NCBI GenBank assembly: GCA_943789375.1
Contig: CALSTX010000005.1
Span: 1-64,000, forward strand
Source of the DNA: an uncultured Opitutales bacterium
Lineage (GTDB): Bacteria; Verrucomicrobiota; Verrucomicrobiia; Opitutales; Seribacteraceae
Reading direction: 5' to 3'
DNA length: 64,000 bases
The stretch's first letter is position 1, and the number at the start of each line of letters is the position of its first letter. The translations under genes were made by a program, and so were the position numbers. Shown here piece by piece: positions 6,885-22,534 of this stretch. The notes under the pieces were generated by a model. The model saw nothing but the letters and a program-made list of their open reading frames with translations. It made no database searches and had not been told where the DNA came from.

Positions 6885-7544
6885 ATGGTTTTAATGAATT
6901 CAAAAACTATATTAATTCGTAAGGGTTTCACTCTGATTGAACTACTTGTGGTGATAACAATTATAGGGATTTTGGCTGGCATAACCTTTACCGGTGCGAA
7001 TTTCCTGTTTAGTGCCAAAGATGAAAAGAAGGCAAGTAGCGAGGTTGAAGCCCTCAAACTTGCCCTGAAGCAATATCAAGCTGAGAACGGAGACTATCCT
7101 TCTACGGACCTATTAGAAACAACAGCAGAAGTGGGAAAAAATGAGCTTTTACTCTTAGCATTGCTTGGGATTCAAGATGGCAGTGGAGTCAAGTTGAAAC
7201 CTGACGAGGTAAGTAGATCATTTCTACCTAGTGATACTTTTAGTTTTGGGTTTCCTGAAAATGACTCCGAGTATAAATTTGCGACCATGATGGGCGTAGA
7301 GACAACTTTAATTTTTGTTGACGATGAAGGCAGAGAGATCAGTGATACTGTTGCAATAATCGACCCATGGGGAAACCCCTACGTTTACGAGTACCCCAGA
7401 CGAGACGGGCATACTGGATTTCTCCTTTATAGTAAAGGACCTGACGGCCAAGCCTCTATTTTTGCCAATGAACTTACTTCAACCCCTAACAAGGAACCTA
7501 AGGACCAAGATAACATTCCCGCTACTGAGCCCGGAAAATGGTAG
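6885..7544 (+). CDS. GspG-like major pseudopilin
   Basis: 219 residues. A short basic leader is followed by the type IV pilin/pseudopilin cleavage site and hydrophobic helix (GFTLIELLVVITIIGILAG, about residues 16-34). The C-terminal part has the GspG-like block DPWGNPYVYEYP and LLYSKGPDGQ. Such proteins are processed by a prepilin peptidase and polymerise into the short pseudopilus of type II secretion or related systems. It is the first of four tandem pseudopilins. The next gene starts 7 bases before its stop, suggesting translational coupling. No secretin, ATPase or prepilin peptidase gene is in the window. Confidence 0.85.
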   Translation: MVLMNSKTILIRKGFTLIELLVVITIIGILAGITFTGANFLFSAKDEKKASSEVEALKLALKQYQAENGDYPSTDLLETTAEVGKNELLLLALLGIQDGSGVKLKPDEVSRSFLPSDTFSFGFPENDSEYKFATMMGVETTLIFVDDEGREISDTVAIIDPWGNPYVYEYPRRDGHTGFLLYSKGPDGQASIFANELTSTPNKEPKDQDNIPATEPGKW

Positions 7545-8257
7545 TCATGAAAAAAACACATAAAAACCCAAAAAATTCTGGTTTCACCCTGATTGAACTT
7601 CTCGTAGTTATTTCCATTATTGGAATTTTAATGGGAATTATAGGTCCGAAGGTTTTTGACCTTCTGAGCGGATCAAAAGGCACGAAGACGCAAGCTGTAT
7701 TTAAGTCTTGGGTTACCCAAATCTATCAATACAAGCAGCATTATAAATATTTCCCTCCCTTCCTGCTTGAGGAGGGTGAAGGAGTACCCGCAAATTTAAG
7801 TGAAGATGAAAAGCATGATGCTTTTATTGCCTCTCTTCGGGGAAAATCATGGAATGCGGATAACTTTACCTGGGAGAGTTTGAGTGGTGATTTACTTGAG
7901 CAAAACAGAAAGAGTAAAGAGTTTCATTCTTTTTCGGAGGATGAATTTGGAAATATTGACACTTTGAACGAGGCCAACAATGGGAAATATCTTTCCGATG
8001 CGTGGGGAGGAAGAAACATCTACATTGTAGTAGATCAAAATGGAGATGGCTTAATTAAACTTAACGACAGCGCTCTATCCTTGATTGTGGAAGCCCTCAA
8101 AAACGATTACGATCCAAGCGATGTTGATCAAGCAAAGGATAAACTCCGGACTATCCGAGATCAGGTAGGCATCTTTGTAATCCAAGATCCGACTGGTGAA
8201 ACAGACACGGAGAATGTATTTTCTTGGGATATTCAAAAGTACTTAGGGGAAAATTAA
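7538..8257 (+). CDS. Type II secretion-like pseudopilin with EF-hand-like loop
   Basis: 239 residues. The N-methylation leader is GFTLIELLVVISIIGILMG after a lysine-rich start. The globular part is unlike GspG but carries DQNGDGLIKLND at residues 166-177, a good match to a 12-residue EF-hand calcium loop. An SDAWGGRNIYIVVD block just before it recalls the GspG calcium-site region. It overlaps the upstream pseudopilin by 7 bases and is followed after 19 bases by the third. The subunit class (G or K) is uncertain. Confidence 0.8.
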   Translation: MVVMKKTHKNPKNSGFTLIELLVVISIIGILMGIIGPKVFDLLSGSKGTKTQAVFKSWVTQIYQYKQHYKYFPPFLLEEGEGVPANLSEDEKHDAFIASLRGKSWNADNFTWESLSGDLLEQNRKSKEFHSFSEDEFGNIDTLNEANNGKYLSDAWGGRNIYIVVDQNGDGLIKLNDSALSLIVEALKNDYDPSDVDQAKDKLRTIRDQVGIFVIQDPTGETDTENVFSWDIQKYLGEN

Positions 8258-8276
8258 CGGCAACCTCTTCCTTCTA

Positions 8277-8978
8277 GTGGCAAGCAACTATAAAAGAGCT
8301 TTTACTTTAATCGAGCTTCTCGTGGTTTTAGCGGTTATGGGGCTAATGATGGGAATCGTTGGATTTTCTCTTCTCGGAGGAGGAGGGGCAGAATTGGGTG
8401 CATCCCAACGAAATATTTTGGGAGTCCTCCACCAAGCCCGAACAATCGCTGCATCAACAGGACTAGAAACCAGAATTTTAATAAACGCAGACCCAGAGGA
8501 TGAGGACAGGTTTTTTAGGTATCTAGAAATCGCAACAAGAGACGCAAACACAACGGATACCTGGAATATTAAAAGAGAAGGAATCACCCTTAATGAAGGC
8601 GTGCATTTTGTCCCCAATAATAAATCGATTTCTAAAAGGGCAGAGGGCTGGCGGACCAATGCGTTTTGTGTTTGGAGCGGCAACGACAATGAGGATTTTA
8701 AGCTTACAGAGGCATTTAAAGGAAAAAGAAAAGAATCGTCAGGCGGTACGATATTTAAATTTATTGAATTTGATGAAGCAGGAAACCTTACATCCCCAGA
8801 AAGTATATCAGGTGGCATGCCCCAACCATTGCTTCTTGTTCTGGCAAATGGTTCACCAAACCCTGGTAGCACATCCGAGAAAATAAGATTCGATGATCCC
8901 AATAACATTGCGGGTATTTTGATGAGAAAATTTGGCGGATTTGCTGTCTTAGAAATTTCAGACTTTGAAGGGTCGTAA
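8277..8978 (+). CDS. GspH-like minor pseudopilin
   Basis: 233 residues starting at GTG (8277). The cleavage motif and helix are AFTLIELLVVLAVMGLMMG. The following region, GASQRNILGVLHQARTIAAS, matches the alpha1-C and first strand of GspH/FimT-type minor pseudopilins. The rest is divergent and cannot be classified further. The fourth pseudopilin begins at a TTG that overlaps this gene by 14 bases. A long open frame on the opposite strand across this gene is a shadow. Confidence 0.8.
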   Translation: MASNYKRAFTLIELLVVLAVMGLMMGIVGFSLLGGGGAELGASQRNILGVLHQARTIAASTGLETRILINADPEDEDRFFRYLEIATRDANTTDTWNIKREGITLNEGVHFVPNNKSISKRAEGWRTNAFCVWSGNDNEDFKLTEAFKGKRKESSGGTIFKFIEFDEAGNLTSPESISGGMPQPLLLVLANGSPNPGSTSEKIRFDDPNNIAGILMRKFGGFAVLEISDFEGS

Positions 8979-9699
8979 TACATCTCAAACACGAATCAGA
9001 TCAGGGTTTACCCTGCTTGAGGTCGTTATTGCTCTTGCCGTTTTTGGTTTTTTGATTGGCGGTCTCCTTGGCTTCCTGCCCTGGGGTATAGAAGGGGTAG
9101 GGAAGGTAAAAGACCAAAGTACAGCCTATGGCTTAGTCGATGCGATTGATGTAGAACTGGAAAGAATGGGCTTTTCTTTGGTGGAGGCAGCGACCAAGAA
9201 TTTAGACGACATGTACAACCCTACATCTCCTCCGATAGAATCCACTGAAAAATACATTCTTCTCATGGTGGCGAGAAATGCTGGAGGGTCGGTTGCATTT
9301 GAGCAAGTTGTCTCGGAGGAGGACTCCGCTTACCTCAATAACGTTGGTAATGATCAAGAAGGGAAAATTATTGATTCTTTTGATAAGGATGCTGGTGGAA
9401 CTGTGTATTTCAATAGAACAAATGAAGGCCCAGTATCTCTGCATGGTCACGAAAATGAAGATTGGAAGACTCCTCCATATTCTTTCAGTTGGATACCTGA
9501 AGATGAGCGTTATTTCTTAATAAAAGTAAGTCAATTCCCTTTCAATCACCGCCATCAGCACCATCCCAGTCATGGTTACCTTGCTTTGCAAATTGATGTT
9601 CAATGGCCTTACAAATTGCCGGTTCCACCTGAAGGTTTTCGTCGGGTACAGGAAAAATATCGCTCTCATTTTCGGTTCCCGCTTGCGATAAGCAGATAA
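8965..9699 (+). CDS. GspI/GspJ-like minor pseudopilin
   Basis: 244 residues starting at TTG (8965) inside the end of the preceding gene. The class III signal and helix are SGFTLLEVVIALAVFGFLIG, and the L-L-E-V-V form is typical of GspI/PilV-type minor pseudopilins. The globular domain is not recognised. A His-rich stretch (FNHRHQHHPSHG) lies near residue 193. The gene closes the four-gene pseudopilin set, and the menA-like gene starts 3 bases later. Confidence 0.78.
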   Translation: MKGRNTSQTRIRSGFTLLEVVIALAVFGFLIGGLLGFLPWGIEGVGKVKDQSTAYGLVDAIDVELERMGFSLVEAATKNLDDMYNPTSPPIESTEKYILLMVARNAGGSVAFEQVVSEEDSAYLNNVGNDQEGKIIDSFDKDAGGTVYFNRTNEGPVSLHGHENEDWKTPPYSFSWIPEDERYFLIKVSQFPFNHRHQHHPSHGYLALQIDVQWPYKLPVPPEGFRRVQEKYRSHFRFPLAISR

Positions 9700-12019: not shown

Positions 12020-15000
12020 ATGCAATCACTGCGAAAAGTTTGTTATTCATTTAGAATAATGAATTTGTGTTTGCTTACTGTTGCCTGTGTCCCCTGTACG
12101 ATGCTTGTGCATGCACAAAGCATCTTCAAAGAGTCTTATTTTACTGTAAGCAATGGGCATTCCAGTGCCCCCTACTTTACATTCACTGATACTGAAGGTC
12201 AGGTGCCTGATTTCTCCACCCTTCCTCTTTACCGTGGCCACACCTATGTTTTTACTTCCGTAAGCGTTTCTAGCTCTCATCCGTTCATGATCGGAGAGAG
12301 CTATGGAGATATGGAATCCTCCCTTGTTGTTGGTGATCCCCTAACTGGCACCGGTGGAAAGATTACAGTAAGTATCCCATCTGATTTTGACGGTTCGCTT
12401 CATTATTTCTGTACCAGTCACACAAGTATGCTTCAGGAATTCTCCATTCTTACTGAACCATCTTCTACTTTCACGGTTTCAGGTGGGCAACCTTCCTATC
12501 CCTACTATCAATTTACTGATGGGAATGGTCAGGGAATCAACTTCTCAACTTTTAATCTTACCAGGGGTGGATTCTACGAATTTATCGCAATGGACATATC
12601 TACCTCGCACCCTTTTATGATTGGGGAGAGTTTTGGAGATGTGGGTTCATCCCTTGTGAGCGGTGCTCCCCTAACAGGTTCTGGGGAAAAAATAACAGTA
12701 AACATACCATCTGATTATAATGGTTCCCTCTATAACTTCTGTACTGAACATACTGAGATGATTCAGGGCTTTTCTGTTCTCTCTCCCGTATCACAATACC
12801 AAGTTATCAATATTGGCTGGAATGAAACAGATCAGTCTTTTTCGGTGAGCGATGAGAACTTTCCTAAAATCCAAGCTTTATCCAATTGTCATTACATTTT
12901 CAAAAATGATTCTAATGAAGAATTAGTTTTGAGTACTGAACTGGAAAGTAGGGTTTTATCGAATTCCACACTTTTTAATAATGGCAGTATTGGTCCAGAT
13001 AATTATTTACTTTTTTCTCCGAAACTTGCCGGGAGTGAAAAAGAAAGTTTTTATTATTATAACCCCGACTCAAATACACAGTATGGTCTCCTTGAAGTCA
13101 TGCCCTATGAAAGAAGTCCTCTTATTCACGCACCTGCTCCCGAATCAGACGGAAAGTTTTCTTATGCTCTTGCAGTAAATTCATCAAATCAAATTATTGC
13201 GGGCGCCTCAGGTGAGAATTCTTTGACCGGCAATGTATATGTTTACAGTCGGTCAAGTGATTTATCTTTCTCTGTGACTCAGGAAATAGCCCCTCCTGTG
13301 GAATTTCAAAATAGTCAGATGCAATTTGGTGCATCTTTATCTTGCTTCAATGATCTCCTTGCTATCTCTGCCCCCAATGACTCGAGCTTCGAAGGGTCGG
13401 TTTTTTTGTACAGCAAAGATGAGGATGGAAATTATTCTTTTATCCAAAAGATAACCAGTGAAGATCCGCAAATCCCAAATATTTTTGGTTACAGCCTTAG
13501 TATAACAAGTGACTTGCTTGCGGTGAGTTCGCTTCAGCATGGAATAGGCAGCGGTGAGGTTTCGTTGTATGATATAGATGAGACAGATGATTCGCTTTCT
13601 TTTAGGGAAACAATTAGATCGAGTGATGGAGTAAGTGGTGATTATTTTGGGTACGATCTCGACCTCAATGAGAGTTTACTCGTTATCGGAGCACCTAATG
13701 CTGGGGATAGTGTTAACGGGGAAGATTCTGGCGCTGTTTATATCTTTGAAATAAATGACTCCGGGACATGGATTGAATCGCAAAAGATCACCCCAAGTTC
13801 ACTTTCAGTAGACGATCAATTTGGTCATACCGTGTGTATATCTGACAATTTCATCTTCATCGGGGCATTGAGGGGTGATGGTGGTGGTGTAGATACTGGG
13901 GCTGTCTATATCTTTGAAAACCTCGATGGGATCTGGACTGAGGTTGCGTTAATCTCCCCTCCCGACGATGGTACGAATCAACTTTTTTCAACTGACCTTC
14001 AATCAATAGGTGATTTTTTAATCACGAGCTCGCCGGGTTCAGGCACACACGGACTGGTATACATCTACGATAACTCAGGGGAATCATCCGCCTGGAATTT
14101 ATTTTCCACTCTCGACTTAAACCAATCAAGCGTCCTTGCGGGAAACACTACCTTTGCGCCTGTTGCCTCAAGTGATGGTATGATCATTGCTGGTTCACCT
14201 GAAGAGAGTGCATCGGGATCTGCAAGTGGTGGCCTTCAAGCTTTTTTCAACCCGGCTTGGACAAGCTCCTCGGAAACTCCCACCCTTTTACCCCTATTTG
14301 ATGGTAATACACCAACCTCCTTTACGATTTCAGAAGATTCAGGGCAATTGATCTATGATTTTAACGCCAGTCATCCATTTGGTTATGCACTTACTTGGAG
14401 CATCGTAACAGAATCAGAGGTTTTAGGGGATGTCTCAGTAGATGAAAGTACAGGAGTTTTTCAGTTCTCTCCCCACCTAGATCGTCATGGTACCCAAAAC
14501 TTTTTGCTTACTTTAAGTAGTGAGAACTTATCTGTAAGCCAAGAGGTTGAAGTTATCATTACATCTATCAATGATGCCCCCACATTCCTTAATATAACTT
14601 CTGTACCCCAAGTGCTGCCGCATTCGATGGTAGGTGAACCATTTAAAATTTCCATAGAAGCGGAGGATAGCGACGGCGATTCGCTTGTCCTTGAAATTAA
14701 GGAAGGTGACCAACTCCCCATCGGCTTGGATCTATTGCTTAATCATGAAACTGGGTTTTACGAGATAATTGGAACTCCAAGTGATGAGGTAGTGAGTGAA
14801 GCAGATGACATAAGTACTCACACTTTCACTATCATTTGTAATGATAACTCAGGTAGTTCACCCATTGAGCAAACTTTCTCTCTCACTGTATACAAGCGTA
14901 ATAATGCTCCAAAATTTCTTGTTAATGGCGTAGAGTCTACGAGTGTAAGCTTGTCGCTGACTGAAGACTTTGACCGTAACAATTGGCTCGAATCCATGCA

Positions 15001-18000
15001 AAATGTGGAGGTCGTTGATCCAGATAATGACTACATCAGCTTCTCTCTTATTCAAGCACCCTCAGATGGAACTGTGGATTTTGAGAACCAAGCGGCGAAT
15101 TCCAATGAATTTATTATCTTTACTCCCGCAATCCATTCTACTGGATCAAGAACGTTTCAAGTTCGGATTTCTGATGACGATATAAACTTCCCTAAATCCA
15201 CGGACTTTACCGTATCCATTGTTATGGAGAGTGTTAATGATCCCCCGCAATTTCTATCTCCTGCCCTTCAAGAAGAAGCAAGCGAAGGCATTTTATATTC
15301 TCACACTTTTGAAATTTATGATCCTGATCAAGATGACCTCTTAAGTTTTGAAGTTGGAGTTCTACCGGATTGGCTAGTCTTGTCTGATGACAATAGAACC
15401 ATAACAGGTACCCCATCATGGCAAGATTATAACGATGGTACCGCCAGCACCATATATGTATCGCTGGAAGACTTGAGCGGGGCCAAAGTAGAACAATCCT
15501 ATTTCATTGCTGTCGTTCCGGAAAACCTTCCTCCTGTAATTGATGGAAATGCCAACCGGATCTATTACATGGATGAAGATCAATTCCCAACTGCTTGGGC
15601 AGATGTTACTCTTGTAGCTACTGATACTGACGAGAGTGCTACCAACTTTAATTGGTCTGTCTCTGAAATTCCATCCAATGGGCAAGTAAATATTGTCAAT
15701 GAGGCGGACTCCACCACGGTAACTTATGTACCCGATGGTAATTTCTCCGGAATTGATCTTTTTTCGGTTAAAGTTGTTGAAGAGAATGATACCAATGCAA
15801 GTGATACTGTTTCATTTACGGTTGTGGTAAATGAAATAGAGGATACACCGGTGTTCAAAAGTTATCCTCATTATAATGATGCCATTGTTGAATATCCGTG
15901 GGAGTATCAAATAAATGTTGTCGATGGGGATGTGGGGCAAACCCTAAGCCTTAGCACTGTAGGCAATATTCCCCCATGGTTATCTTTTGTGAATACTCAA
16001 AACGAAGAAGCTATCTTAAGGGGGATCCCACCCATTGGCCAAGAAGGCGAGTATTCCATTGTGTTAGATGTGGTGGATATTTTCGGTAACCGTTCAACTC
16101 AATCTTTTACCATCCGGGTACTAAATGAAAATACCGCCCCCTTATTTTCTTTCCCAGATGAAAACATCTTTACCATCGAAGAGGACGAGGTCTGGGAAAG
16201 TGAAAATGCATTTATAATCGATCCTGAAAATCAAAAAATAACGAGTTTAATAAATTCAGCACCCAAACATGGGAGCTTAGCTGTATCAATAAATGTAGAA
16301 AAAGAAATTGTTATCCAATACACGCCTGAAGGGAATTACACGGGATCTGACGATTTCTCATTACTTTTCACAGATGGAATCAATTCAGATAGTTCTTCTT
16401 TTCAGGTAACGATAGAACCTGTTGATGATAAACCATCATTTGCTGATTTCCCTGCTTCCATAACACTTTCCGACGATGAAGACCTCAACGAGACAATAAT
16501 CATCCATGATGGGGATTCTCTTTCGGATCTCCAATTCATGGTGGAGAATAAGCCTGATTGGGTCAAAATTGATGACTCTATGTTGCAAATTTCTGGTATC
16601 GTTCTCCTAAGCGGCAGTCCTTCCTATTTAGATGAAGGGCCAGTAGATATTACCTTTACCGTTGTAGATGAAATGCAACTTAGTAGCTCGAAGGTTTTAT
16701 CAGTCAATGTCATTGTGTACAATTATCCCCCAGATATTGAGCAGGACCAGTTTTCAGTTGTAATGACAGAAGACGAGCAAAGTTCCTGGGTTTCCCCCTC
16801 CTTTTCTGCAACTGATGATCATACACTTCCAGAGGATTTGCATTGGGGTATCTCACAGCACGCTTCTCATGGGACTGCGGTATTGGAAGCAGACGGAACC
16901 AACCTTGTCTATCAACCTAATTCCAATTTCTCAGGTGTTGATTTTTTTACAATTGAAGTTAGCGACGATGGAGGAGTTGAGAATGCTGGGACAAAGAGCT
17001 CACTTATCGAAATAAGTGTAACTGTGAATAATATATATGACGCACCAATTTTTACATCCGTCCCTCCCAGCCTCCGCTCTGATTTCATTACCTGGAACGA
17101 TGAAAGCGAATATTATTATGTGGTTGAAGCTTCTACTCCAGATAGCACTGCTCTAGAGATTAACTGCACGAGTAACTTGCCGCCCTGGTTGAAGTTTACA
17201 GCTGAGCAAGCAACAGGGAAAGGGATTCTTTCTGGGCTTGCACAGCCAAGCGACATTGGCAGGTATAAGTTGGAATTTGAAGCTACAGATGGAGTGACTA
17301 CCATAGAGCAATCTTTTGATCTCACGATACATGTAGACAATTATCCCCCTGTTTTTCACTCCACATCCAGTGATATCCCCATCAAGAAAGTGCGGGTATT
17401 CATGGACGAAGATGGAATTGGAGGAAGAGGGTGGGTCCCCCCTCAAAATTTTATGTGCTACGATCCTGATCCTGAAAAATCAAACCAAGAAATCATTTGG
17501 TCTGTAAGTAAAGAGCCGCAAAGTGGCAGTGCGTTAGTTGCCGAGGGCAAAGGTATTCGACCTGCCGTATTTGATTATTCTCCCTTAGCAAATCTCAATG
17601 GTTATGATGAATTTTACCTCAGGGCATCGGATGGCATAAGGAATTCTGACTTAAAGGTTGAAGTGTACCTGCGTGCTATTCCAGATGCACCGTACTTTGT
17701 CGAGCCCACTGCCAATATTTTTCAATTTCAAGGAGGGACCCAATTTAATATCCCGATTTTAGCAAAAGATGAAGATTCGAGCGATTTATTCTATAAGTTT
17801 TTTGTGCCTGAATGGGCCAAGAAAAGTTCTTACAATTTTCAAATGGTAGAGGCAGAAGAAGGGGTGGTCCTATCTGGTTCACTTCCTGAGGGCGCAGCCA
17901 GTAGGTCTATTCCGATTACTATATCTGTACTGGATGAGAGCGGGGCGTTTGCAACCACTGACCTCATGCTAGAAAGCAATGGGACAAACCAGTCTCCTGT

Positions 18001-21000
18001 TATACAATCTGGGAATGAAATCACTATGGTCTTTTCTCAAAAGGGATCACTTATCTCAGCTAACCTAGACCAATTAATTGCAAGCGACCCTGAAGGCGAC
18101 TTTCTTACCTGGGAGATAAATAGCCAAAAAGCACCCAATCTTGGGCAAATCATATTGGAGTCGAACAACGAAACGATCGACAATTTGCTTTACCTTCCAA
18201 ACTTCACAGGCAGCGGAACTGACTCCTTCGCCCTTCGTGTAACAGATGGTAAAAAGTATGACGAAATCCTGATTAATGTGATTATCCTTGAAGATAATAG
18301 TGCCCCAATAATTACCGGTTATGACCTTATCCAGGGTAATCAAAATGAGTTGTTAGCTGTTGATTTTCAGGTTTTACATTCTGGCAGTTATTTCGACAGT
18401 TACATGACGAAGGGGCCCGACTGGTTAAAACTAGAGAAAATTTCTACTACTAAAATTCGTGTCACTGGGACTGTACCTAAAACATTAATTGGTTCAACCG
18501 ATGTAAGTTTTATTGTGGCATCATCAAATGCAAGGCAAACTACGAAAACTTTTACAGTGGAGATAATTGATAGTATCCCACCTTTTATTCAACTCGTTGG
18601 TGACAAGTTTGTTTCAATTAATAAGGGAGGCGAATTTCAAGAAACTGGGTATTTTGCATCAAGTCATCAAGGTGCAGACCTGACAGGAAGGGTTAGCGTT
18701 TCCCCTCAAATAGATTACAATAAGACAGGTGCATTCAAGCTAACCTATCAGGTGACTGATGACCAAGGTAATACAGCGGAAGATTTTAGGATTGTTCAGA
18801 TTTACGATAAATCCCCCCTCAATTTTTCTCACGCAACTTACCTGCATTCCACAAGCTCTCTTCATGCTCTTATATCTGACTCAGAAACTTTCTTTATTGG
18901 AGGAACATTGGTCGATGATCTTAAAACTTCCAATTCATCTTTAGTTGCTGAACAAATCCAAGTTCAATCCAACGAGTTATTTATTGGTGAGCTAGATACA
19001 AAATTAAAAAACTGGAATTGGATAATAGAGTTAAGCGGTAGCGATGTGAAACTTGGCAAAATAATTCATCGAGGTGAACATCTTTATCTAGTTGGTACAT
19101 TTTCTGAAAAGCTTACCATCGGAAATAAATTAATATACAGCCAATACCCTCGTTCCTTATTTTTGAGCAAAATAACTACGGATGGGGATTTGCTATGGAC
19201 GAAAACCTTTCATTCAAACCATACTATAGAGCAACTCCAAATTGAAGTAACAAAAGATGATCAAATACTGTTGGGAGGAAGTTTTCGGGGAGATATTTAC
19301 TTTACTGATATTGAATCAGTTGAGTCCTATGACGAAAGCCTCGACATTTTTCTTCTTAAATTGAATGAGAGAGGACAGGTACAAAATTATGCTAAGTTTG
19401 GTAAAAGTGGGGATAACCTTCTCAGTGGGGTTGCATGCGATGAGTTCGGAGTCACCCTAGCCACAAATGTGGCTAAATCAGGTGCCAGTTCGTATGGGTT
19501 ATTACTTCTCCTTGATCAACTTTTACAGATAAAGTCTTATGTCAGCTTTGAATCAGATAATTTTAGTAAATGCGAATTCTTGAAAATTGCGGAGAATGAG
19601 ATCTATCTAAGTTGTAATTATACTGATTCATTAAAGATGAATACGGGTGGAGATGGAGTTGCCCCTAAGAATGAGGTTATCAGCTTCTCCGACGGCAACT
19701 CATCTGTAATCATGAAATTGTCATCCGGTTTAGAGTTAGAGTGGTTGCATGAAATGGAATCTGGGAAAGATTTTGCTATTGAATCGATGGAACTGAGTCC
19801 CTTTGGTAATGTTATATCGCTGATTAGCTTCACTCAAAGCACGAATAGTTTGAGCCAGAATGAGGGAAGTAATTTAAGAGATCTTTCGATTCTCAAATTG
19901 CAAGGAATGAATGGTAAAATAATTTGGGAAGAACTGATTATTGGAGATGGAAATGAAGGGAATTCTTCACTTGCTGTAAATAAATATGGTTCTATCGGGA
20001 TCATGTTAAATTCTGATGAAGGAGTGATCTTAGACTCTTCATTTAATCTTGATAAAACAGAATCTGGCGAATTAATGCTTATTAAATTTCAAAGCGATGC
20101 TCCCATTGTATTTAAAGAAATGGAAGACCTTATGTTAATGGGGGGACAGTTTTTCAGCCAAGAAATTATTTTGGAAAATCGAAACTTTGCAGAATTCTCT
20201 CTTTTACAGGCACCGAATTTTATAACGATCCAAAGCACTGGCACGGGGAGAGCGACTCTTTCAGGTTTAGCTCCCAATACTGCTGCCATTGGCGAAATAA
20301 TTATTCGTTCATATGATACGGATGGAGCCAAATCAGACTTAATTATTAATTACCAAATTCAAAGAAATTTCAATTTGGTTTCCGCTGACAGTCTTCCTTT
20401 TTTTCATTCAGAGAGAACTATTCAGGGAAAAGGTAAAATTAATCGTATTATAGAATTAGAAAATCAAAAAAAGCTTGTTGTCGGAAATGCACTTACCGAT
20501 ATCACTTATCAGGAAAATACCATAAATAAACTTGGTTTGCGTTATGGTTTCATTTTACTGACCGACTCAAATCTACACTTGGAGGAAAAGGTCCAAATTA
20601 AATCTTCTAATGAAGTCGTCATCAGTGATGTAACCCAAGATCAAACAGGGAAAATATTTGTTCTCGGAACATTTAAAGAAGATCTTTTTATGGGTGGCAA
20701 AAAGTATTTTGCTTCAAATAGCCATAATGTTTTCATCGCGGAATTAACCAGTAATGGAAGTATTAGTTTGGTTAAAATTCTTGGATCAGATCGAGACCTT
20801 TTTTCTTCAGGACTTAGCTCCAATGACGGCTTGATAACAATCTCTGGTCAACTCTGGGGGAGATATTTCGATAATAATTTAGGCTCTTTCCCTTCCAATG
20901 GGATTCAGGACGGGTTTTTGGCACTACTCCAAGATCAGGAGCTGAAAAGCTTTCACACTATAGGCGGAATAGCACTGGATGAAATCATTGGGCATACTTC

Positions 21001-22534
21001 ACTAGGTAATGATACAATAGTCGCCGGTAACTTTGATGGTAGTTTTAATTGGGCTAATGATATTTACAGCGGGGAAGGGCATTCATCTTTTATCTCGAAA
21101 ATGAAAGGAAGTGTGAATGAGGAAAGCATTTCGATAATAGACAGTAGTGGTTCTGTAAAAAGTAAATATTTAAGATATAACAACACTGAAAATTCTTTTT
21201 TCCTATCTGGTGAATATGAGGGAACGATCACAGTCCAAGACCATCAAGTCTCATCATTTTCAGGCTTAGATATTTTCATCGGTAAATTTAATGAAAACCT
21301 AGAATGTATTTCCCTGGTAAGTTTTGGAGGCGAGGGAACAGACAGGCTTACAGACTTTAAAATAGATAGCGAAGGAGACTTACTTTTCTCTGCAACTTAC
21401 ACGAAACCTATATACCTAGCGGATCGTAAAGTGAGTGATGGCTATTCTCCAGGTACATATATCGCGAAACTTGATCCTGTTACTTTGGGTATCAAAGATT
21501 TTTTTAATCCTGATGAGCAAGGTATTGCAAAAATTGAAACCATAAGCCCGATCCGTCAGAACAATGTTTTGTTCACTTACTCCGGCCAAGACCCGGAGGG
21601 TAATTCTGAAATGTACATTGGTAGCCTTGGTTCACCTAGAAATAGCCCAGGTATTTCTCAAAATTTACCGAATTCAATCTCTTCAAACTCTTTTTTCACT
21701 TTTAATTTCTTAACTGGACCATGGACCGATGACAGTGTTTTACTTGAAAGAAACTCGAGCATCCCCGACTGGTTGCATGTAGACATTCAAACTGATGGAA
21801 CAGGGGAGTTATCAGGTCAACCACCTAAAAGTGACGAGGATATTAGTTATGAGATCAGCTTTGATCTTTCAAATTCACAAGGTGAAATCTTCACTTTTGA
21901 TCAAAGTCTGCTCGTTAAAGATATTTCGAGATATAAACCTCGAATCCTTATTGCAGAGGAATACACATTCAAACAATTTGAGGAAGTTGAGATTTTAATT
22001 CACTTATTCGATCTAGATAACGAGCCATTTGTAGTTCACCCCACATTACCAGATTGGCTATCCTCCAAGTTTACGGAAAATAATAAATTAGAAATTTCAG
22101 GAATTGTACCCGAAAATAAAACTGGCTCTCATAACTTTTCAATCTTAGCCACGGATAGCTCAGGTCTTATAACCCATGCGGCTTCTAAAATCATTATTAT
22201 ACCAAACCTTGGTGGTGACTCCACTGGTACCAACGATTTACCCAAAAGATGGAATCGAGAATGGATTGGTGTTTATGCTTTTACATCATCTGGTTGGTCA
22301 TTTCACACGGTCTGGGGATGGTCATGGTTTTCCCCAAATCCAGAAACCCCAGAACTTTGGTTCTTTAGCGAAAATGGAAATTGGTATTGGACGAGATCAC
22401 AATATTGGAATGGTGAAAAAAATGAAGGTTACCTTTATGAGTCTGAAAGTGGAACATGGATTTTTTGCAGACTTGAAGAGGGTGAAGCCATTAAGTATGA
22501 CTACAACTTACAAAGATGGAGTGCTTTTCCCTAG
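12020..22534 (+). CDS. Giant secreted cupredoxin/beta-propeller/cadherin-like surface protein
   Basis: 3504 residues. A signal peptide follows the second in-frame ATG (12059; MNLCLLTVACVPCTMLVHAQ). Two tandem cupredoxin-like domains come next (about 41-150 and 151-258), each with a full type-1 copper ligand set at H87/C131/H134/M137 and H197/C241/H244/M247. The C-x2-H-x2-M spacing is that of amicyanin. A third, ligand-less copy may follow (about 259-370). Then come an FG-GAP-type beta-propeller (about 377-750), some ten alternating cadherin-like and putative-Ig (He_PIG) domains (about 760-2190), an HYR/DUF5011-like domain (about 2190-2265), two further propeller regions separated and followed by Ig-like units, and a Trp/Tyr-rich C-terminal domain (about 3407-3504; GWSFHTVWGWSWFSPNP). 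It is probably a cell-surface or exported adhesin. No neighbour explains its role. Confidence 0.85.
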   Translation: MQSLRKVCYSFRIMNLCLLTVACVPCTMLVHAQSIFKESYFTVSNGHSSAPYFTFTDTEGQVPDFSTLPLYRGHTYVFTSVSVSSSHPFMIGESYGDMESSLVVGDPLTGTGGKITVSIPSDFDGSLHYFCTSHTSMLQEFSILTEPSSTFTVSGGQPSYPYYQFTDGNGQGINFSTFNLTRGGFYEFIAMDISTSHPFMIGESFGDVGSSLVSGAPLTGSGEKITVNIPSDYNGSLYNFCTEHTEMIQGFSVLSPVSQYQVINIGWNETDQSFSVSDENFPKIQALSNCHYIFKNDSNEELVLSTELESRVLSNSTLFNNGSIGPDNYLLFSPKLAGSEKESFYYYNPDSNTQYGLLEVMPYERSPLIHAPAPESDGKFSYALAVNSSNQIIAGASGENSLTGNVYVYSRSSDLSFSVTQEIAPPVEFQNSQMQFGASLSCFNDLLAISAPNDSSFEGSVFLYSKDEDGNYSFIQKITSEDPQIPNIFGYSLSITSDLLAVSSLQHGIGSGEVSLYDIDETDDSLSFRETIRSSDGVSGDYFGYDLDLNESLLVIGAPNAGDSVNGEDSGAVYIFEINDSGTWIESQKITPSSLSVDDQFGHTVCISDNFIFIGALRGDGGGVDTGAVYIFENLDGIWTEVALISPPDDGTNQLFSTDLQSIGDFLITSSPGSGTHGLVYIYDNSGESSAWNLFSTLDLNQSSVLAGNTTFAPVASSDGMIIAGSPEESASGSASGGLQAFFNPAWTSSSETPTLLPLFDGNTPTSFTISEDSGQLIYDFNASHPFGYALTWSIVTESEVLGDVSVDESTGVFQFSPHLDRHGTQNFLLTLSSENLSVSQEVEVIITSINDAPTFLNITSVPQVLPHSMVGEPFKISIEAEDSDGDSLVLEIKEGDQLPIGLDLLLNHETGFYEIIGTPSDEVVSEADDISTHTFTIICNDNSGSSPIEQTFSLTVYKRNNAPKFLVNGVESTSVSLSLTEDFDRNNWLESMQNVEVVDPDNDYISFSLIQAPSDGTVDFENQAANSNEFIIFTPAIHSTGSRTFQVRISDDDINFPKSTDFTVSIVMESVNDPPQFLSPALQEEASEGILYSHTFEIYDPDQDDLLSFEVGVLPDWLVLSDDNRTITGTPSWQDYNDGTASTIYVSLEDLSGAKVEQSYFIAVVPENLPPVIDGNANRIYYMDEDQFPTAWADVTLVATDTDESATNFNWSVSEIPSNGQVNIVNEADSTTVTYVPDGNFSGIDLFSVKVVEENDTNASDTVSFTVVVNEIEDTPVFKSYPHYNDAIVEYPWEYQINVVDGDVGQTLSLSTVGNIPPWLSFVNTQNEEAILRGIPPIGQEGEYSIVLDVVDIFGNRSTQSFTIRVLNENTAPLFSFPDENIFTIEEDEVWESENAFIIDPENQKITSLINSAPKHGSLAVSINVEKEIVIQYTPEGNYTGSDDFSLLFTDGINSDSSSFQVTIEPVDDKPSFADFPASITLSDDEDLNETIIIHDGDSLSDLQFMVENKPDWVKIDDSMLQISGIVLLSGSPSYLDEGPVDITFTVVDEMQLSSSKVLSVNVIVYNYPPDIEQDQFSVVMTEDEQSSWVSPSFSATDDHTLPEDLHWGISQHASHGTAVLEADGTNLVYQPNSNFSGVDFFTIEVSDDGGVENAGTKSSLIEISVTVNNIYDAPIFTSVPPSLRSDFITWNDESEYYYVVEASTPDSTALEINCTSNLPPWLKFTAEQATGKGILSGLAQPSDIGRYKLEFEATDGVTTIEQSFDLTIHVDNYPPVFHSTSSDIPIKKVRVFMDEDGIGGRGWVPPQNFMCYDPDPEKSNQEIIWSVSKEPQSGSALVAEGKGIRPAVFDYSPLANLNGYDEFYLRASDGIRNSDLKVEVYLRAIPDAPYFVEPTANIFQFQGGTQFNIPILAKDEDSSDLFYKFFVPEWAKKSSYNFQMVEAEEGVVLSGSLPEGAASRSIPITISVLDESGAFATTDLMLESNGTNQSPVIQSGNEITMVFSQKGSLISANLDQLIASDPEGDFLTWEINSQKAPNLGQIILESNNETIDNLLYLPNFTGSGTDSFALRVTDGKKYDEILINVIILEDNSAPIITGYDLIQGNQNELLAVDFQVLHSGSYFDSYMTKGPDWLKLEKISTTKIRVTGTVPKTLIGSTDVSFIVASSNARQTTKTFTVEIIDSIPPFIQLVGDKFVSINKGGEFQETGYFASSHQGADLTGRVSVSPQIDYNKTGAFKLTYQVTDDQGNTAEDFRIVQIYDKSPLNFSHATYLHSTSSLHALISDSETFFIGGTLVDDLKTSNSSLVAEQIQVQSNELFIGELDTKLKNWNWIIELSGSDVKLGKIIHRGEHLYLVGTFSEKLTIGNKLIYSQYPRSLFLSKITTDGDLLWTKTFHSNHTIEQLQIEVTKDDQILLGGSFRGDIYFTDIESVESYDESLDIFLLKLNERGQVQNYAKFGKSGDNLLSGVACDEFGVTLATNVAKSGASSYGLLLLLDQLLQIKSYVSFESDNFSKCEFLKIAENEIYLSCNYTDSLKMNTGGDGVAPKNEVISFSDGNSSVIMKLSSGLELEWLHEMESGKDFAIESMELSPFGNVISLISFTQSTNSLSQNEGSNLRDLSILKLQGMNGKIIWEELIIGDGNEGNSSLAVNKYGSIGIMLNSDEGVILDSSFNLDKTESGELMLIKFQSDAPIVFKEMEDLMLMGGQFFSQEIILENRNFAEFSLLQAPNFITIQSTGTGRATLSGLAPNTAAIGEIIIRSYDTDGAKSDLIINYQIQRNFNLVSADSLPFFHSERTIQGKGKINRIIELENQKKLVVGNALTDITYQENTINKLGLRYGFILLTDSNLHLEEKVQIKSSNEVVISDVTQDQTGKIFVLGTFKEDLFMGGKKYFASNSHNVFIAELTSNGSISLVKILGSDRDLFSSGLSSNDGLITISGQLWGRYFDNNLGSFPSNGIQDGFLALLQDQELKSFHTIGGIALDEIIGHTSLGNDTIVAGNFDGSFNWANDIYSGEGHSSFISKMKGSVNEESISIIDSSGSVKSKYLRYNNTENSFFLSGEYEGTITVQDHQVSSFSGLDIFIGKFNENLECISLVSFGGEGTDRLTDFKIDSEGDLLFSATYTKPIYLADRKVSDGYSPGTYIAKLDPVTLGIKDFFNPDEQGIAKIETISPIRQNNVLFTYSGQDPEGNSEMYIGSLGSPRNSPGISQNLPNSISSNSFFTFNFLTGPWTDDSVLLERNSSIPDWLHVDIQTDGTGELSGQPPKSDEDISYEISFDLSNSQGEIFTFDQSLLVKDISRYKPRILIAEEYTFKQFEEVEILIHLFDLDNEPFVVHPTLPDWLSSKFTENNKLEISGIVPENKTGSHNFSILATDSSGLITHAASKIIIIPNLGGDSTGTNDLPKRWNREWIGVYAFTSSGWSFHTVWGWSWFSPNPETPELWFFSENGNWYWTRSQYWNGEKNEGYLYESESGTWIFCRLEEGEAIKYDYNLQRWSAFP

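Follow-up and report, generated by a model that had tools for sequence, protein, structure and literature searches.

Why would a giant, adhesin-like protein carry at its very front two small domains that each resemble a copper site? The gene that raises this question (12020-22534, forward strand) lies in the window, by which we mean the whole 64,000-nucleotide stretch that was analysed; it starts with ATG and encodes 3504 residues. The frame agrees with what a sequence-only reading had reported, with two tandem domains in front, and continues into FG-GAP repeats, Ig/cadherin-like arrays and a tryptophan-rich C-terminal module. Judged from the translation, residues 1-32 (12020-12115) have a basic start, a hydrophobic stretch and the residues VHA before a Q, and are likely to form a signal peptide. 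Together with the adhesin-type repeats, this signal-like N-terminus suggests that the protein is secreted and probably located at the cell surface.

Behind the N-terminal domains, FG-GAP_2 repeats (PF14312, E 9.8e-37) that probably fold as a beta-propeller occupy approximately 13100-14300, limits that we estimated; the family matches five stretches within 12800-14300. An Ig/cadherin-like array, its limits estimated from the best stretches, follows on the same strand at approximately 14460-18800 and includes the families Big_9, He_PIG, Cadherin_5 and Bact_surface_Ig-like. The Trp-rich module closes the protein (22199-22534, forward strand). It is found at five places in the genome, namely the window copy and four others, and in the only other copy that was read (L097) it is again C-terminal. 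A Pfam scan of the whole 3504-residue protein listed no family at this module, which is a candidate anchoring or sorting domain.

The two N-terminal domains, both cupredoxin-like, span residues 39-145 (12134-12454, forward strand) and 149-255 (12464-12784, forward strand) and are 61% identical over 107 aligned residues without a gap. The ligands that had been named for them, with C-x2-H-x2-M spacing, are found exactly in the translation. In domain 1 these are H87, within an HPF motif (12278-12280), C131 (12410-12412), H134 (12419-12421) and M137 (12428-12430), and in domain 2 H197, again within an HPF motif (12608-12610), C241 (12740-12742), H244 (12749-12751) and M247 (12758-12760), all on the forward strand. 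The C-x2-H-x2-M pattern occurs just twice in the 3504 residues, where composition predicts 0.003 occurrences. Each domain contains one cysteine, and residues 26-290 hold no other.

AlphaFold2 modelled the domain pair with a mean pLDDT of 91.9 and domain 1 alone, from 29 aligned rows, with a pLDDT of 96.1 and a pTM of 0.87. The usual cupredoxin layout has a histidine before a strand, a cysteine at a strand end, and a histidine and a methionine in the next loop. In the model of domain 1, a strand (residues 53-56 of the model) begins two residues after H87, the strand 92-95 ends with C131, and the loop that precedes the final strands holds both H134 and M137. The modelled ligands are therefore predicted at the canonical topological positions, and at this level of topology no separation of the four residues appeared. 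Foldseek searches with the domain pair gave 208 chains at E <= 0.001; the top match is a nitrite reductase whose loop reads CTPHPFM (E 1.4e-6), and multicopper oxidases, nitrite reductases and laccases come next. The single domain had five matches at E <= 0.001, all of them mutants of SO1698, a protein deposited as an aspartic peptidase under a title that is not that of a copper protein; multicopper oxidases, plastocyanin (7pcy, 5.1e-3) and azurin rank after these, at a TM of about 0.5. In VIA-align the CuA domain of cytochrome oxidase scored Z 7.0 over 98 residues at 2.9 A, SO1698 6.9, two-domain laccases and NirK 6.7, and the purple cupredoxin of Nitrosopumilus 6.5 over 91 residues at 2.9 A. 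We read the predicted fold as cupredoxin-like, with the reservation that all Z values are below 8 and that the TM of the single domain is about 0.5.

By sequence, the domain belongs to an unnamed family and is not an amicyanin. The window domains score below the cut-off of every Pfam and NCBIfam model. The closest approach of Copper-bind (PF00127), to the domain pair, is 14.1 bits (E 0.063), below its cut-off of 21.2, and the NCBIfam amicyanin model TIGR02657 gives no match at E <= 1. The label ‘amicyanin-type’ of the sequence-only reading accordingly holds for the spacing of the loop, which is present in both domains, and fails as a statement of family membership. Other links were considered and set aside. 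A profile-profile link to PF00127 through azurins of related genomes came down to one comparison (E 0.0026, probability 4.7%) and was too weak, and a YHS match (PF04945, E 0.002) covered 14 residues around the second Cys-x2-His below the cut-off and was treated as chance. Sequence searches of the PDB returned no significant relative (best E 0.26 and 0.19). In contrast, the cyanophage gp9 group PHROG 677 matches the window domain with E 1.2e-17 across PHROG positions 318-409. The At5g54830-like model PF25489 is matched over most of its length by short relatives (copies L132, L135 and L147), with a best E of 6.9e-5, although at 23.3 bits the best of these stays below the cut-off of 27; the window domain itself has no match to this model. 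From these sequence matches, PF25489 is possibly a eukaryotic branch of the same family.

The way in which the four residues are kept or lost bears directly on whether they form a site. A 56-copy non-redundant alignment (37 bacterial, 19 phage) was assembled after dropping rows with E > 1e-5, duplicates and rows with X; with H-x1-M and H-x3-M variants counted as having Met, all four ligands are present in 51 copies. The ligand columns all fall within the six most conserved of 108, and the residues adjoining them are likewise among the most conserved. The five other rows comprise one truncation at a contig edge, one joint loss of three ligands and three phage stretches that align across the C-terminal half only. 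A further alignment (A2) held 17 copies chosen for the full motif, leaving out copies with a lost or altered motif and some intact near-duplicates; the invariant columns of this set were given no weight.

An unselected set was taken from all places found by profile search in 32 related genomes, giving 82 copies, 79 of them complete at the four columns. All four ligands are kept in 47 of the 79, three in 1, two in 5, one in 12 and none in 14. Were the ligands independent, 16.1 four-ligand copies would be expected, and none of 10,000 shuffles reached the observed 47; shared ancestry inflates these counts, as the copies are not independent events, and the profile, built mainly from intact copies, is biased towards detecting such copies. 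The site is intact in 34 of 35 copies in the strong group (E < 1e-20) and in 13 of the remaining 44. Exact C-x2-H-x2-M spacing is seen in 44 of the 47 four-ligand copies, and the loop variants among relatives are two shortened H-x1-M and one lengthened H-x3-M. The C-x2-H-x1-M form is found in two tandem arrays (L104, L105), each time in the third copy, and C-x2-H-x3-M in another protein (L121). When 3321 column pairs were ranked by mutual information, the first and second histidines came 2nd, Cys and the second histidine 4th, the first histidine and Met 7th, and the second histidine and Met 10th; the first histidine with Cys ranked 29th and Cys with Met 64th.

The near absence of three-ligand copies is the pattern expected of a metal site lost as a unit, and the nearly all-or-none set argues that the site is real. 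Copies with no ligands also occur, one of them as a third copy of the domain in the genome of the window itself. In this copy (L159) the residues EGSA replace HCHM, and the frame to which it belongs (L099 7315-12474, on G000:C4) is 1720 codons long and contains 17 InlB B-repeat-like stretches. The existence of such copies indicates that the fold does not need the ligand residues. From the predicted fold, the placement of the ligands and their joint conservation, we conclude that both window domains very probably hold an intact cupredoxin-type metal site. The earlier claim of an intact copper site is thus sustained as regards a metal site. The metal itself, judged from the ligand set and the loop spacing, is likely to be copper of type 1, methionine as fourth ligand with a C-x2-H-x2-M loop being a copper pattern.

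The same reading had called the joining of electron-transfer domains to adhesin arrays unexpected and had proposed a search for similar architectures. The joining is real, but it is no isolated case. A profile that included phage rows matched 32 of 42 genomes in the family and 44 of 372 in the order, and relatives lie both in giant adhesin-like proteins of marine Opitutales and, with the same ligands, in virion proteins of cyanophages. The window pair itself matches 22 of 92 bacterial genomes searched, its own included, and a bacterial-only profile matches 8 of 387 genomes drawn from across the phylum; in GTDB genomes, eleven named loci come without exception from Opitutales, Opitutia or Verrucomicrobia. 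The host proteins of relatives contain cadherin, Ig-like, laminin-G, C-type lectin, fn3, M12 peptidase or FGE-sulfatase domains. Two domain-bearing open frames (on G027:C150 and G041:C56) are 12,157 and 10,840 codons long, the former with four copies of the domain in tandem, and if real they would rank among the largest bacterial proteins.

Among 50,697 phage records, tblastn with the window domains gave 231 matches, all cyanophages by name, and a cyanophage query gave 349, mostly cyanophages with a few other marine phages that include two Pelagibacter phages. IMG/VR returned no relatives to window-type queries and 16 loci to a phage query, and a search of the PLSDB plasmids gave no match. In cyanophages the domain is found in virion genes, namely the gp9 baseplate connector, a proximal tail fibre and a podovirus gene, and the first histidine and C-x2-H-x2-M are intact in these copies (L044 4098-5279, L066, L043, L064 and L045-L059). 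Pfam recognises the T4 gp9/10 N-terminal part of gp9 and has no match to its C-terminal domain. A gene of phage S-SCSM2R (PQ898602) annotated as ‘PetE’ (L061 3794-4300) also belongs to the family; it adjoins genes named FhaB and peptidase S8, matches no plastocyanin model and is probably not a photosynthetic plastocyanin. In excerpts from two cyanophage genome papers, plastocyanin appears only as the photosynthesis gene petE (PMC3037559, PMC2984593).

The window gene has a syntenic ortholog in a metagenome-assembled genome labelled ‘Opitutales bacterium’ (L032), with 73% protein identity along the whole length and all eight ligands identical. As in the window, a UbiA gene and an M29-like gene come before it and DXS after it. 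Measured against this ortholog, dN/dS is 0.18 for the whole protein and 0.21 for domain 2, which is therefore no more constrained than the rest; the value of 0.07 for domain 1 was not used because its dS of 2.3 is near saturation. The ten neighbouring genes scanned encode a helicase, a PP2C phosphatase, MurJ, four proteins with prepilin-type N-termini, UbiA, a weak match to M29 peptidases and DXS; none of the ten has a redox or copper function or encodes a copper transporter or regulator or a methylamine dehydrogenase. The four genes with prepilin-type N-terminal methylation motifs are consecutive between MurJ and UbiA (6885-9699), and a long antisense frame (8288-8992) lies within this run. 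Elsewhere in the genome PF00127 is matched at four places, one an azurin-like frame of 153 codons and three in frames of 928-1535 codons, and a COX2 domain is present. These copper proteins indicate that copper redox chemistry is available to the organism.

With moderate confidence we see in the domain a structural or adhesive module braced by metal rather than an electron relay, because its hosts are attachment-type proteins in bacteria and virion proteins in phages, no redox partner is encoded among the scanned neighbours, and similar giant proteins contain copies that lack the ligands. The domain would be a mobile beta-sandwich module of attachment structures, shared by adhesin-like giant proteins of bacteria and the baseplates and tail fibres of phages. 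Copper would be taken up after export of the protein and would brace the loop-rich end of the sandwich or shape a binding face there, so that the domain would act as a metal-stabilised structural or adhesive head and not as a link in an electron-transfer chain. As a whole explanation, a secreted and probably surface-attached protein with two copper-site domains as its structural or adhesive head stands in our judgement at even chances; the role is read from the proteins in which the domain is found, and a surface redox domain could keep the same company.

Such a redox domain is the first alternative, in line with the suggestion of the sequence-only reading that the domains might link redox or copper sensing to the cell surface. 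Two type 1 sites would exchange electrons with extracellular partners, either other copper proteins or small molecules, and the giant protein would carry redox capacity outside the cell. A ligand set of this kind, which is complete here, usually marks an electron-transfer site, and the genome holds the azurin-like frame, the three large PF00127 frames and the COX2 domain. Furthermore, the nearest Pfam model for the short relatives, PF25489, is named after At5g54830, which we take to be a plant protein with DOMON and cytochrome b561 domains; however, those matches fall below the cut-off and the window domain has none. The ten scanned neighbours lack redox functions, the domain is exchanged among adhesin-like proteins and structural proteins of phages, and copies without ligands are retained in similar proteins. 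We therefore regard surface electron exchange as unlikely.

Capture or sensing of copper, scarce or toxic, outside the cell would suit intact sites that come first in the mature protein, and the arrays in which as many as four domains stand in tandem. A type 1 site, however, binds one ion, neither transporter nor regulator of copper is found among the ten neighbours, and copper storage is of no obvious use to phage tails, all of which makes this role improbable. A different metal in vivo, for example zinc, or Cu(I) in a purely structural role, is no more probable. The ligand set could bind other soft metals and the loops with altered histidine-methionine spacing show some tolerance, but the methionine in its C-x2-H-x2-M loop is a copper pattern and the residues adjacent to the ligands are conserved as well. 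That no metal is bound at all, the four residues being structural or a relic, is suggested by the fold of ligand-free copies such as L159, and is very improbable given that merely structural residues predict common partial sets and no fold in ligand-free copies, whereas the sets are all-or-none (47 with four, 1 with three) and those of the L032 ortholog identical.

Neither cupredoxins nor large proteins to which copper domains are fused are new, and electron transfer is the textbook function of type 1 copper sites. In the literature searched, we found no description of the window-domain family or of a cupredoxin link to these proteins, nor any account of phage baseplate or tail proteins that have type 1 ligand sets. 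A family with a type 1 ligand set, for which neither Pfam nor NCBIfam has a model, lives here in attachment structures. A broader proposal is that this one family, in giant bacterial adhesins and in cyanophage baseplates and tail fibres, is a copper-dependent attachment module in which a type 1 site would stabilise or gate surface binding, and we hold it to be rather unlikely. Were the proposal true, the copper of sea water and its redox state would tune the attachment of both cells and virions. As a site is retained or lost whole, with both kinds of copy in one genome, the natural copies allow the role of copper to be tested. Should copper be bound, the supply of metal becomes a factor in marine adhesion and in infection by phages; if it is not, the four residues are co-conserved for another reason worth finding.

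Compared with known type 1 copper proteins (PF00127, Cupredoxin_1 PF13473, NirK and the CuA domain of COX2), the window domains are alike in their modelled beta-sandwich and in having the same histidine, the cysteine at a strand end and then the histidine and methionine in a loop, and most of their structural matches belong to this class. They differ in the HPF[MY]I motif at the first histidine and in lying in adhesin-like giant proteins without partner genes nearby. With amicyanin (TIGR02657) they have the spacing of the C-x2-H-x2-M loop in common; the amicyanin model finds the S-SCSM2R phage relative with E 2.9e-4, at 21.2 bits against a cut-off of 110.2, and unlike amicyanin the window gene has no methylamine dehydrogenase gene among its ten scanned neighbours. 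The purple cupredoxin of Nitrosopumilus maritimus (PDB 5fc9) is 16% identical to the window domain over 91 residues; it is a small stand-alone protein, unlike the window domains, and its copper site is open where theirs have methionine. Cyanophage gp9 (PHROG 677, the baseplate wedge tail fibre connector) begins, in phage ACG-2014d, with the T4 gp9/10 N-terminal domain PF07880, which is absent from the window protein, whereas its C-terminal domain is the same as the window domain and carries the same four ligands.
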